NCBI RefSeq assembly: GCF_024713975.1
Contig: NC_091107.1
Location: 15,303,501 to 15,367,500 of the forward strand
Direction of reading: 5' to 3'
From: Paralichthys olivaceus
Lineage: Eukaryota > Chordata > Actinopteri > Pleuronectiformes > Paralichthyidae
Length of the DNA stretch: 64,000 nt
Shown: in pieces, positions 51,611-57,600 of the stretch
Layout of the letters: every line of letters starts with the position of its first letter
How positions within the stretch are numbered: the stretch's first letter is position 1
Notes under the pieces: generated by a model
The model's input: the letters and a program-made list of their open reading frames with translations, nothing else
Told to the model about the DNA's origin: nothing
Database searches by the model: none
Program-made: the position numbers and the translations under genes

Positions 51611-54600
51611 ATGCTGACATGTAGGAGCGTGTGGAAGAAGCTCACACCGTTAGCTCGAGCCTCTTCAACTCTGTGCCGGCTCAATGTGAGGCGAGCAGGT
51701 CAGTCACTCTCCACAACAACTTCAGAGTTCGATCCAGACACGCTGCATGTAACAGGGGCGATGGTTTGTTAGAAGCTACGCTGGGTAATGACCAACATCT
51801 CGGCTAAAGGACCCTGACCACAGTTCACCTGTTACTAAGATAACTTAGCTACACTTGTGCAGAACTAGCTAACTTTGATCAAACTGCACCTCACTTGCTC
51901 TAGCTCTGACCTACAGTCTCCCAGGAAGCAGCATCAATGAATAATAATAATAATAATAATAAAACTCAAGTCATTCTCAAGTTCAGACATGGCTGTGGTT
52001 TGTACCTGAACCCGTTGGGTGTTAAATCAATCTGGATCCAATCACAGGGCAATAATCAATAATTATATCAACGTAATTGTCATCAAAATAACTACAGAGC
52101 TACACGCTGCAGGCATTGTTCTGTTGTCTCTATGTTTTGTGAATAATAAATGTCATCAGTGACAAAAGTTTATTATATATGTATGTATGTATTTAAGCAC
52201 AGAGAGGAGGTTTGTAAAATGTTTTGCTGTCAAATGTTTGTCATTGTCTGTTCATGAGTTTAAAACAACCTTCACTCATGAGCAAAAATATTCATACTTT
52301 TGTGACATTAATTGTTTCAATTGACATTGACTGATATCGTTTATAAAAATATGAATATCATTTTTTGGGGCCAGCCCACCCCCCGTCAGATTCCACAATG
52401 CTTATATGGATCACGGGGGTTGTTTCTTTCAGACCGTTAGTTACATGCCTGGAGGTGTCTGGAATGTACAGTGATGAAGACAAGTAGCTCATGGGGGGGT
52501 CGATCATAACGAAGATTCAACCCTCTGAAGCCTAATTATCAGTGTGGGCTTTCCTTAATCAACCCAACTAACAAGCACAGGAATTCTTGTGTCGCCTGGT
52601 GAATGTCAAGTCAATGCACAAGTTGAAATGTAGACATGTGACGTTTCATGGAACAGCAGCTAAATAAGCTTGATTGATCAGTGAATATATACCTCAGTAT
52701 TAGTCAGCATGATCATAAACAAAGCATCTTCAGTCATGGTAAATGTACTTGTGCTTTCCTAAATCACTTAACGTGTTCTTCACATGTGTGTTCTGTCTCT
52801 CTAGGTTACCTTTGTGAGCACTGAAATGAAATCCGTTCTATCCGGTTATGGTTTTTTGTGATGTTAACTGTTTTCCAGGGTTAAACAATGGCGGACCAGT
52901 ACGCGTACCAGCAGCTAACATGTCCACCGGTCCTTCGGGGGGAGGAAGGGAAAAACAGCTGTACGTGGTCTTAGTTGGAGCAGCCGCCCTTGCTGGGGGA
53001 GTATATGTGAGTTATGACATGAAGTATATGCATCAAAAATTCAAAGTCTATGTTTAAAATAAGAATGATGTCATTGGTGTTAGACCCATTGTTTATTTGG
53101 CAGATTTCATCCAGACGATCCTACCCTACCTAGTCACTCCTCAAAGCTGACAGTCACTGTAACGGTTTGGTTTTTACAGGCGTACAGAACTGTCAAAAGT
53201 GACCAACGTAGATATCAGGAACGTATCGATGACCTTTCATCCAGACCGCAGAAAGCAGCCGCACAACAAACAGCTGTCCCCCTCAACGAGTCAGAGCCGT
53301 CTGGTGAGCAATTGTTCTTAATTGTTCTTAATTGATATTATTATTCCACTGTCATGTCATCAACCCTTTAATTTCTTTTTGTTGTTGTTTTTGTTTCAGC
53401 TACCGAAGCCACTGAAACAGCTGTGGAAGCCACTGAGACAGAGCGTGAGTTATTTCTGCAATTTCTAAGAATATGTTATCTTAATGTTTATATATCAAGC
53501 TCCACATCTGTTAATAACTTCATAGGTAGTAAGACTGAACTGTCATGAAAGTGCTTGTGCATTAGTTGCTTTAGCTTTCTGTTTTTAAATTGTAGTTAAA
53601 TGTCATATGCAACAAGAATGGGCTCTGAATCTGCTGACTCTGCAGTGCACTGTTTAACTTCCTCTTTATTGCCACATAGAGAGCAATTTATGAGGACTCT
53701 GAACTTTATTTAATTTATTTTTATGATTAAATTGATTCTTTTATCAGTGTTTTGATTAATTATCTGAATATCACATAGCATGTTAAATAAGTCTACTCCA
53801 CATCAATAACTGCATAGTTAATAATGGATATTTTCTTTCTCAGCCGTTGCTGAGCCAGAGCCTGAGGCAGCTCCTTCACCAGAGGAGCCAATCCCTCCGG
53901 CCCCTGAGGCTGAAGCAGCCGCTCCCGCTGAAACATCTGAAACTGTCCCAGGTAGTTTGCTCTCATTTCTTAACCCCTTAACGAATGAGTAAAACATGCC
54001 TCCTGTGTAAACTCTGTGTTTAATCTAAAACGCTGTAGAAAAATTCTGCATTTCAGTACACTTTGTTCTTTGGTGAGGAATCAATTGGAAATGGTGACAC
54101 CAACTGTTTGGATGAGGTTGGTGCACAATAAGGAGGCTGTTAAACACACCTATTTGGTCACTTCTCTTTTTACACTGCCCATAATTATCCCACATCACCA
54201 TAATATGGAATATGTTTTATGATGGCAGAGTTTATACATGAGGCTCTCTTGGACATTCATAACTTGTGTTGTATTTATTGTCTGTGTGAGAAGTTTCCGG
54301 CCTGAACTGACTTTTCCTTCTCGTTGCATGTGTTGTGTTATTTTTTTCCACCGTCTTCACTTCTCAACAATGCATGTGTCGTTCCTCTGTATATTTCACT
54401 GGATGTTATTTATTTCCTGTCCACTCACATTTTAAATTAACCCATTTACATTTTCAGTCTAAAATGTACACACTCACATATTAACTTTCACTCAGAATTG
54501 TAAATAATTGTTTTTGTGAGACGGTGCTTTGAGTTTTGTCAGTATTTTCTAAGAATATTGTTTGTTCCTTTTGTGTGTGTTGTTGTATTTGTTGTATTTC

Positions 54601-57600
54601 AAATGTGATCATCCTATCTGGCATTTTCTGTGAATGTGTCATACTTTGTGGATTTTCCCTGGGATCCTACTCAAAATATATTTTCTTACTATTAACTGAA
54701 ATGTGATAATGTTGTACATAATTGGAAGCTGCCCTCTTACAGTGGACTACATTTTCTACCAAGTACATGTGAACAGTGTGGTATCACAAGCATTAGAAAA
54801 AACCGCAGTGACACTTTGATCAACATATTACTTCATAACTATGGTCATAATTGTCTTTTTTACTTCATAACTATGGTCATAATTGTCTTTTTTACTTCAT
54901 AACTATGGTCATAATTGTCTTTTTTACTGTCGTTGGCCGTGAATATGATAGTAGAGGATCAGTAGTGCTTCTGTCAACCTTACAACTCAGTTCTTACTGA
55001 GAAATTTGCAAAAAAAGGAAGAAACATCTACATCTGCTTTTCTTAAATACACGAAAACAGAATCCGTAATTAAGTGACACTTTGCTGAGCAACGGCGCCA
55101 CTCGTGGTTTTATCTATTCTTTGATTTATTCTGTTGGCCTCTGTTTTAGAGCAACTTAGTGTTTCATGTAGCCAACAAACATTCTTAGTTTTGGACAGGG
55201 GCTCTGACTGTGTGGTACCATTGAAACACAATTGTACGGTGGAGCCCCATGATCCCCAGCTTCCTGAACCAGAAGAGCTGCCGCTGTAACAAATACACCA
55301 AACATTTGTTTAGAATTCTTGATATTTTTTAAGTTTCCTCACTTAATATTGAAAACAGAAAATTGCTGTTTTTAATGATTTTCACACTTCATTACTCTTG
55401 AACTTGCTGGGCCAAGGCTGTGACTATCAGTCGTTTAAACATTTTTCACAGGAGATGGTACCCATTCATCAAAATAGTGCAAGACCAGATGTGCAGGGTC
55501 AGGTGGGGAAATGAAAGAGGCACCGTTATCCACATTACAAATCATTAATCTCATTTTGAAGCTGCTACTTTTAGTGAAGGAAAGTTGCATAGTGTTGCAA
55601 TGTAAGAAGCTTTTAACCAAAAAGTCTTTGGTATAATGTGGTATGTTGTATGTAGAAGGTAACTGGGCAGCTTCCCGTTATTTGACTGTGATAGCGTGCA
55701 TGCTCTGCACATGACTCCTGGGGTAAAGCTGAGGAAATTCATGCATCCTGATGGTCCTCCACTTAATAATCTCTAAAGAATTTAGTCTTAACTCGTAATA
55801 TGGATTACCTCAACAGCAGATGAGCCTGTGGTAGAAGCAGCACCCCCAGAAGAAGCAGCAGAGTCTTCTGCTGCACCTGTAGTCGAGGAGGGTAAGATAT
55901 GAGAAGACGGGATATTCTGATCCACAGCTCAGTTAAAAATGGATTTTATGTATTAGCTGTGGTACACATTAGATGTTGTTGTGTAACTTTTACCGCTTTA
56001 CTGCCAGAACCAGCACCCCCACCTGAGCCATCCCCAGTTGAGCTAACAGAGCCACCTCCTGCACCTGTAGTGGAGGAGGGTAAGATATGAGAAGACAGGA
56101 TATTATGATCTACAGCTCAGTTAAATAAGGATTTTACATATTAGATGTAGTGCAGATTAAGTTATTATATAACCTTTACCACTATACTGCCAGAACCAGC
56201 ACCCGAGCCGTCCCCAGTTGAGGTAACAGAGCCATCTCCCGCACCTGTAGTTGAGGAGGGTAAGATTTGAGCTGACATTCTGATCTACAGCTCAGTTAAA
56301 TACAATATTACATTATTAGCTGTAGTGCACATTTTAGGTTATTTTGTAACTTTTGCCACTACACTGCCAGAACCAACACCCCCACCCGAGCCGTCCCCAG
56401 TTGAGCTAACAGAGCCACCTCCTGCACCCGTTTTGGAGAGTGGTAAGCAGACCAGTGCATGGAGCCAGTGAATTACATTTACCACATCTGTGTGTTTTAC
56501 TTGGATTTAACCACTTAATCATCCGGATACACTAACAGAACCTACAGCAGCAGCAGATACAGCAGAGCCGCCTGCAGCAGAGCCAGCCGAGCCTCAGCCT
56601 GAAGTTGTGGCAGAGAGTGGTAAGACAACAGTCCAGCTTCGGTTGGAGCAGGGGAGCGTGCAGACACCGATTCTTTCCCCCATACCGATAATGTTAATGT
56701 TAATTTCAAACACCTTTTCTCCCTTTTTTATATTTTAACGTTTCTTTTTCGTTACAGCTTCTCTCCCTGCCTGTTCATGAATCCTTCACATTGTTTGGCT
56801 TCTTGTAATGATAATGGTTAAATTTACTCACATACTTCTTTTGTTTACCAGGTGCATTTACTCCTCAAAGGTTCTGTGTAATTCATAGTTACTGATGAAC
56901 TGTCTGTCTCCTGCTTTTGCTTACTGCCTGTTTCTCTCTCCTGCTCGCTCTTTTGCTGTCACTCTAAGTTCAAACTCCAGCAGTGGATGCCACACCTGCC
57001 TCTTCCAAGGTGCCCTCACACGCCCCCTACCTCCTTATCGGTGGGGGTACTGCCTCTTTCGCTGCTGCCCGGTCTATTCGAGCCAGAGACCCCGGTGCCA
57101 GGGTCAGTCGTACCTCTGATTTCACCATAAAAATCCAAACTTGGAATTTAGTTCATTGCCCCAGTCTCAGTCAATAACATTAACTTCTATGGGCTTTTTT
57201 TTGCTTCCAGGTACTAATTGTGACTGAGGAATCAGAGCTTCCATACATGAGACCACCTCTTTCTAAAGAACTGTGGTTCTCTGATGACTCCAGTGTGACA
57301 GAAACTCTGCGTTTCAAACAGTGGAATGGAAAAGAAAGAAGGTGTGTTTCAGTTTCCTCTGGTATTTAAAAAAAAAAAAAAAAAAATAATTTTGAACTTC
57401 TTTTAACCAACCCATAAAAAACAGTTGTAAGTGTTAACCCCAGCCCTCCAGAAAAGACCTAATGGTCACAATGGGCACAATGTCTTAATACCGAGTGAAA
57501 CTGCTTTATACGAATATTTCTTAATACTCTTGGCTGGTTTATTTGACATCTTGTTGAATTCAAAAATTTAATGGGTGTGTTTGATTTTACTAAGAAAACG

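Follow-up and report, generated by a model that had tools for sequence, protein, structure and literature searches.

Seven symmetric exons, partly a tandem exon-intron array, encode a long acidic linker in the predicted aifm1 gene of Paralichthys olivaceus

The window analysed here is a stretch of 64,000 nucleotides from Paralichthys olivaceus (contig NC_091107.1, positions 15,303,501 to 15,367,500 of the forward strand). It contains an intact aifm1 gene (51611-61660, + strand) whose coding region, from the first ATG to the stop, comprises 23 exons and 783 codons and is stop-free. Seven of these exons (exons 4-10) encode an acidic, proline-rich linker between the inner-membrane anchor and the FAD domain of the protein, AIF. 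Within this run, exons 7 and 8 look like hybrids that arose by tandem copying of an exon-plus-intron repeat. We hold it probable, with some reserve, that exons 4-10 form a tether that holds the AIF body off the inner membrane, evolves in length and bears the AIF/CHCHD4 import platform. The exon model was built by hand from genomic DNA alone, and the use of its exons in mRNA is predicted.

By its sequence, the gene is an AIFM1 orthologue. Full-length Pfam matches to Pyr_redox_2 (159 bits, profile positions 4-290 of 291) and AIF_C (203 bits, profile positions 1-130 of 130) follow one another in the order expected for such an orthologue. An N-terminal targeting segment is present as a match to AIF-MLS (38.7 bits against a cutoff of 29.9), and a hydrophobic segment in exon 2 is the inner-membrane anchor. 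NCBIfam gave no match for the N-terminal 285 residues. Joining exon 3 to exon 11 (56969..57102, + strand), where the model and the alignment to Protein Data Bank (PDB) sequences place the start of the FAD domain, yields a protein of 611 residues. A PDB search with the first 201 residues of this linker-skipped form retrieved AIF 1 chains (E 6e-46), and AIF 1 / PDCD8 accounted for the best 21 of the 31 matched sequences. The alignment to AIF 1 starts at residue 68 of the skipped form, and its gaps are confined to the short linker. The best-matching AIF 1 chains are presumably human.

All seven linker exons lie on the + strand: exon 4 (53400-53444, 45 bp), exon 5 (53844-53951, 108 bp), exon 6 (55820-55891, 72 bp), exon 7 (56008-56079, 72 bp), exon 8 (56194-56259, 66 bp), exon 9 (56371-56442, 72 bp) and exon 10 (56539-56619, 81 bp). 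They have AG/GT borders throughout. Their lengths, and phase 1 at both ends, are as an earlier sequence-only reading of this DNA had proposed. The same reading had described an acidic, proline-rich, in-frame insertion of 172 residues between the anchor and the FAD domain, which the model and the PDB alignment bear out at residues 114-285. Its claim that any subset of the seven exons could be skipped without a frameshift holds for 128 of 128 combinations, all of which stay open to the same stop. It had also put human AIFM1 at 170 residues shorter, which is consistent with the human AIF constructs ending at residue 613 that are described in PMC11832770. The linker is composed of P (48), E (44), A (32), V (18), T (13), S (10), L (3), D (2), I (1) and Q (1). 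It is devoid of K, R, H, G, N, C, M, F, Y and W, and carries a net charge of -46. Given the intact exons, the frame, the composition and the position, the predicted structure of the linker is well supported.

A scan of region 53300-57110 for phase 1 cassettes with at least 40% proline plus glutamate and a good donor recovered six distinct donors in the real sequence and none in each of 60 dinucleotide shuffles. Exon 4 was missed at this threshold because it is 33% glutamate and has no proline. A laxer scan of introns 1-11 (24-180 bp, pyrimidine before the AG, good donor, at least 25% proline plus glutamate) revealed no further hidden cassettes within its limits. A proline- and glutamate-rich open stretch in intron 5 (~55240-55286) was rejected as a cassette: judged by eye, it ends in the wrong phase, and the scan did not pick it. 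Intron 5 also contains an exact tandem repeat (54828-54928, + strand; 3.2 copies of a 32-bp unit, 100% identity), which is probably young and a possible length marker. Exon 4 with the three bases that precede it (53397-53444, + strand) harbours a 21-bp repeat (81%). Close to the end of exon 3 there is a stretch similar (70%) to the last 30 bases of exon 4, a likeness that may reflect an older local duplication or chance.

The central part of the linker is encoded by a tandem array, with homology present for introns 6-8 and exons 7-9. Introns 6 (55892..56007, 116 bp), 7 (56080..56193, 114 bp) and 8 (56260..56370, 111 bp), all on the + strand, are mutually 84-88% identical, which places them 36-50 standard deviations above dinucleotide shuffles. 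Intron 7 is identical to intron 6 at 97/114 positions (z 50) and to intron 8 at 94/107 (z 37), and the third comparison gave 91/108. None of introns 3, 4, 9 and 10 scored higher than the best of 200 shuffles, either against introns 6-8 or against one another. Exons 7, 8 and 9 are mutually 88-92% identical (61/66, 65/71 and 57/65, of which 65/71 is exon 9 against exon 7). Exon 6 resembles exon 7 (z 10) and exon 8 (z 11), chiefly by its 3′ end; against exon 9 it only equals the highest shuffle (z 3.0), a borderline match. Exon 9 has its 5′ part in common with exons 7 and 8, while its 3′ end and the intron that follows it differ. A duplication in the assembly is an unlikely source of the array, the intron copies being 12-16% apart.

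This pattern points to exons 7 and 8 as chimeras, exon 9 being the candidate source of their 5′ part and exon 6 of their 3′ end. Sites informative between exon 9 and exon 6 were fitted to the single best breakpoint and compared with 5000 shuffles of the sites. With flanks included, a single breakpoint accounts for 67 of the 72 informative sites of exon 7 (40:3 exon-9-like on the left, 27:2 exon-6-like on the right) and for 54 of the 61 of exon 8 (33:2 and 21:5). No shuffle did as well in either case (0/5000). The two best breakpoints are separated by four columns of the alignment and fall near CCTCCTGCACCTGT in exon 7. Much of the signal sits in the flanks, as required if the repeat unit crosses exon borders, and the test was therefore rerun on the exons alone. 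One breakpoint then fitted 32 of 34 sites in exon 7 (26:1 left, 6:1 right; 1/5000 shuffles as good) and 26 of 28 in exon 8 (19:1 left, 7:1 right; 0/5000). Since exons 7 and 8 are chimeric, the breakpoints of the repeat lie inside exons: each unit begins within one linker exon, crosses an intron and ends in the following exon.

The simplest history that the sequence of the array suggests involves two duplications. The ancestor would have had exons 6 and 9 with a single intron between them. A first duplication would have broken each of these exons within its 3′ part and fused exon 9 (5′ part) to exon 6 (3′ part), leaving one chimeric exon flanked by two intron copies as the ancestor of exons 7 and 8. 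A second duplication would then have copied this chimeric exon. As the breakpoints fall within exons that share a phase, each copy retains its splice sites and contributes an in-frame cassette of 22-24 residues; the acceptor-to-acceptor spacings are 188, 186 and 177 bp. Copy number, and hence the length of the tether, would change by unequal exchange over evolutionary time.

The array exons might instead be an annotation artefact, that is, pseudo-exons or unspliced relics, some or all of which the true mRNA skips. The skipped N-terminal part does resemble AIF of solved structures, and the exons are known from genomic DNA. However, the seven exons share correct borders, one phase and one composition, six of the seven were found by the scan that gave none in 60 shuffles, and both splice sites are kept in all copies despite 12-16% divergence of the introns. 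We therefore regard an artefact as very unlikely.

If the exons are used, they could be included alternatively, by tissue or stress, to give AIF forms of 611-783 residues. In favour of such splice-tuning, all seven exons are symmetric and 0 of the 128 skip combinations give a stop or a shift. The acceptor tracts of exons 6 (8/17) and 10 (9/17) are the poorest in pyrimidines among 22. The acceptor of exon 6 is of the NAGNAG type (aacagcag|ATG; 55814-55820, + strand) and adds or drops one alanine, the alternative site giving an exon of 75 bp. The donors of exons 4 and 5 are modest (5.9-6.0 bits, scored with a frequency table). The donors of exons 6-10, however, score 7.7-8.7 bits, in the upper half of the range of the whole gene (4.0-9.4 bits), and would fit constitutive inclusion as well as regulated use. 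Symmetry, too, follows from duplicating symmetric exons and does not need regulation. Regulated inclusion is thus judged unlikely, and the linker exons would mostly all be spliced in. As an aside on the gene model, the donor of exon 14 is a GC (ACAG|gcgagt, 57968, + strand), and the remaining 21 introns have GT.

In mouse Aifm1, skipping of exon 2 raises caspase-3 activation (PMC12407278). N-terminal splicing of this gene can thus matter, a case that is silent on the linker exons. A mutually exclusive choice from exons 7-9 would have a precedent, tandem-duplicated exons with copied introns being a common setting for it (PMC9013439). Here, the introns measure 111-116 bp and the gene has shorter ones (down to 75 bp), so serial splicing of exons 7-9 is not sterically barred. 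In addition, joint inclusion would be harmless, the exons being symmetric, and the three cassettes encode nearly identical sequence. Such a choice appears extremely improbable.

The Pfam family AIF-MLS (PF14962), a profile of 192 positions, gives a view of the linker in other AIFs. The N-terminus without the linker matches positions 31-90 (31.8 bits), and with the linker the match extends to ~177 (38.7 and 40.2 bits). Exons 4+5 alone raise the score to 46.0 bits and exons 4-6 to 45.5 bits, whereas forms with exons 7-10 only (25.6 bits) or exons 6-10 only (27.4 bits) fall below the form with no linker. Shuffled linkers scored 18.5-40.8 bits, one of the 10 exceeding the real linker, and shuffled versions of exons 4+5 scored 26.4-45.0 bits, 0 of 9 reaching 46.0 and three coming within 4 bits. 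An order-specific match of the linker had seemed promising at four shuffles but fell with six more and with the nine shuffles of exons 4+5, and orthology of exons 4-5 to linkers in the Pfam seed was rejected as a reading. The real N-terminus thus matches the family, and profile positions ~90-187 accept an A/P/E-rich linker, but the linker match is mostly compositional. The tail of the profile favours A/P/E-rich composition, an indication that linkers of this type occur in AIFs already included in Pfam. Among the matches listed from the open-licence literature, covered as titles, abstract openings and excerpts, none dealt with a long linker or with tandem exons of aifm1 in fish.

Disordered linkers tolerate length change, and the linker could be a neutral spacer, a drifting low-complexity insertion enlarged by repeat instability and tolerated without effect on AIF function. 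The mainly compositional Pfam matches favour this explanation, as does the divergence within the array. Exon copies differ at 19/202 sites and intron copies at 47/329, so that the exons are slightly but not significantly lower (Fisher p = 0.105, the pairs being dependent), and the pN/pS values for exons 7-9, from a small number of changes, are 0.19, 0.45 and 0.75. In length, a single in-frame gap of 6 bp, in exon 8, is all that sets the array exons apart. Paired 1-bp alignment gaps occur against exon 9, exons 7 and 9 being of the same length, and the gaps between intron copies are of 1, 2, 3 and 5 bp. Retention of intron 6, 7 or 8 would introduce a stop at the fourth codon. The divergence and the gap pattern are compatible with coding use, selection on the array not being proven. 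It would nevertheless be surprising for a neutral spacer to run for 172 residues without a basic or aromatic residue and to show no stop or frameshift in seven exons. Moreover, the linker shifts the computed pI of the full protein from 8.66 in the skipped form to 4.79, a change expected to matter for a membrane-near protein. A neutral spacer is therefore considered possible, though on the whole unlikely.

The divergence values above count against a functional tether of evolving length, and so do several other points. At the DNA level, exons 4, 5 and 10 are not detectably related to the array or to one another, so the array accounts for exons 7-9 and for the 3′ end of exon 6, not for the linker as a whole. 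A common origin of these three exons was considered and rejected, the best scores (z 2.2 for exon 9 with exon 10, z 2.0 for exon 4 with exon 5) both lying below the highest shuffle. On the 3′ side, the chimera signal within the exons comes from few sites (6:1 and 7:1). Exon use is predicted, and copy-number variation proposed, from the DNA of one fish genome, and all functional steps of the tether reading are ones that we infer.

Under the tether reading, the linker would act through its length and charge. Its composition falls on the disordered side of the charge-hydropathy rule, and the linker is probably disordered. Its contour length is ~62 nm, and its end-to-end distance is estimated by a scaling rule at ~10-12 nm; the same rule gives ~4 nm for a mammal-like linker of ~40 residues. 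An acidic disordered tether of this kind would leash the folded AIF body to the inner membrane. According to PMC11832770, NADH-bound AIF and CHCHD4 form an import platform anchored at the inner membrane, and the extended N-terminus of yeast Mia40 lets its catalytic domain reach into the intermembrane space. The long tether would widen the reach of the AIF-CHCHD4 platform in this compartment.

Apoptotic release of AIF bears on the tether as well. The human cut site that frees AIF, which we take to lie near residue 102, is in a region that aligns at about fish residues 88-91 in the PDB alignment, within the stretch encoded together with the anchor by exons 2-3 (52879..53303, + strand). The linker starts at residue 114, ~23 residues C-terminal of the aligned site, and a cut fish AIF would therefore most likely keep it, barring other sites. 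The sequence-only reading had located the linker where AIF is released from the membrane. The linker is indeed near the cut region, but it begins beyond the site and would most likely leave with the released protein. Calpain I and cathepsins are named for AIF cleavage, with a 57-kDa product, in PMC8040471. The linker tail shifts the computed pI of the released protein from ~6.1 to 4.6. The released protein would thus keep an acidic tail, and its contact with DNA or membranes may weaken. A bolder version of the tether reading is quite doubtful: tether length would be an evolving copy-number trait, unequal exchange between alleles, possibly with splicing, would set the reach of the AIF-CHCHD4 platform, and the tail of -46 would restrain DNA binding by released AIF.

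Compared with human and mouse AIFM1, the fish gene has the same order of anchor, Pyr_redox_2 and AIF_C, and the N-terminal 201 residues of its skipped form align to the PDB AIF 1 chains; it differs by an acidic insertion of 172 residues, placed between exon 3 and the FAD domain, and by a pI of 4.79, against 8.66 for its own skipped form. The exons of the titin PEVK segment combine in-frame symmetry and disorder. The fish linker has PEVK-like features in its symmetric, P/E-rich exons, and it is disordered by the composition rule. According to PMC6469411, the titin segment is spring-like and consists of numerous short exons with a high content of P, E, V (and A), which are gained and lost by slippage, recombination and tandem duplication. 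Unlike PEVK, the linker is acidic and lysine-free, lies in a mitochondrial oxidoreductase and has seven exons, against 113 annotated PEVK exons in human titin (PMC6469411); its repeat unit also breaks inside exons, yielding chimeric ones. By this analogy, the linker may be regarded as a variant, in an AIF orthologue, of a known PEVK-like way of building disordered segments. The likeness to yeast Mia40 is one of architecture, an extended N-terminal tether at the inner membrane giving the catalytic part its reach (PMC11832770). Metazoan CHCHD4 differs in having no such tether and docking on AIF, so that a long tether would sit on AIF. We infer that such a tether would give the metazoan AIF-CHCHD4 pair a Mia40-like reach.

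Elsewhere in the window, a weak reverse transcriptase match upstream of aifm1 (50780-50935, - strand; 25.1 bits against a Pfam cutoff of 29.6) is likely a retroelement remnant, and the frame beside it (50361-50663) has no Pfam match. A long open frame on the - strand (30381-33536) matches AMER, APC membrane recruitment protein (268 bits). Two further frames (18982-22257, - strand) match the Regnase-1/ZC3H12 C-terminal domain and UBA_6, and probably belong to a zc3h12-type gene.

The predicted linker touches two open matters of AIF biology. One is whether the AIF-CHCHD4 platform is restricted in its place of action by the shortness of the linker in mammals; the other is whether the nuclear activity of AIF after release is influenced by its N-terminal tail. 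The predicted linker would also illustrate a clean route to a longer disordered tether, the duplication of a unit with one end in each of two symmetric exons. In such a duplication, each copy would bring its own intron and add an in-frame cassette.

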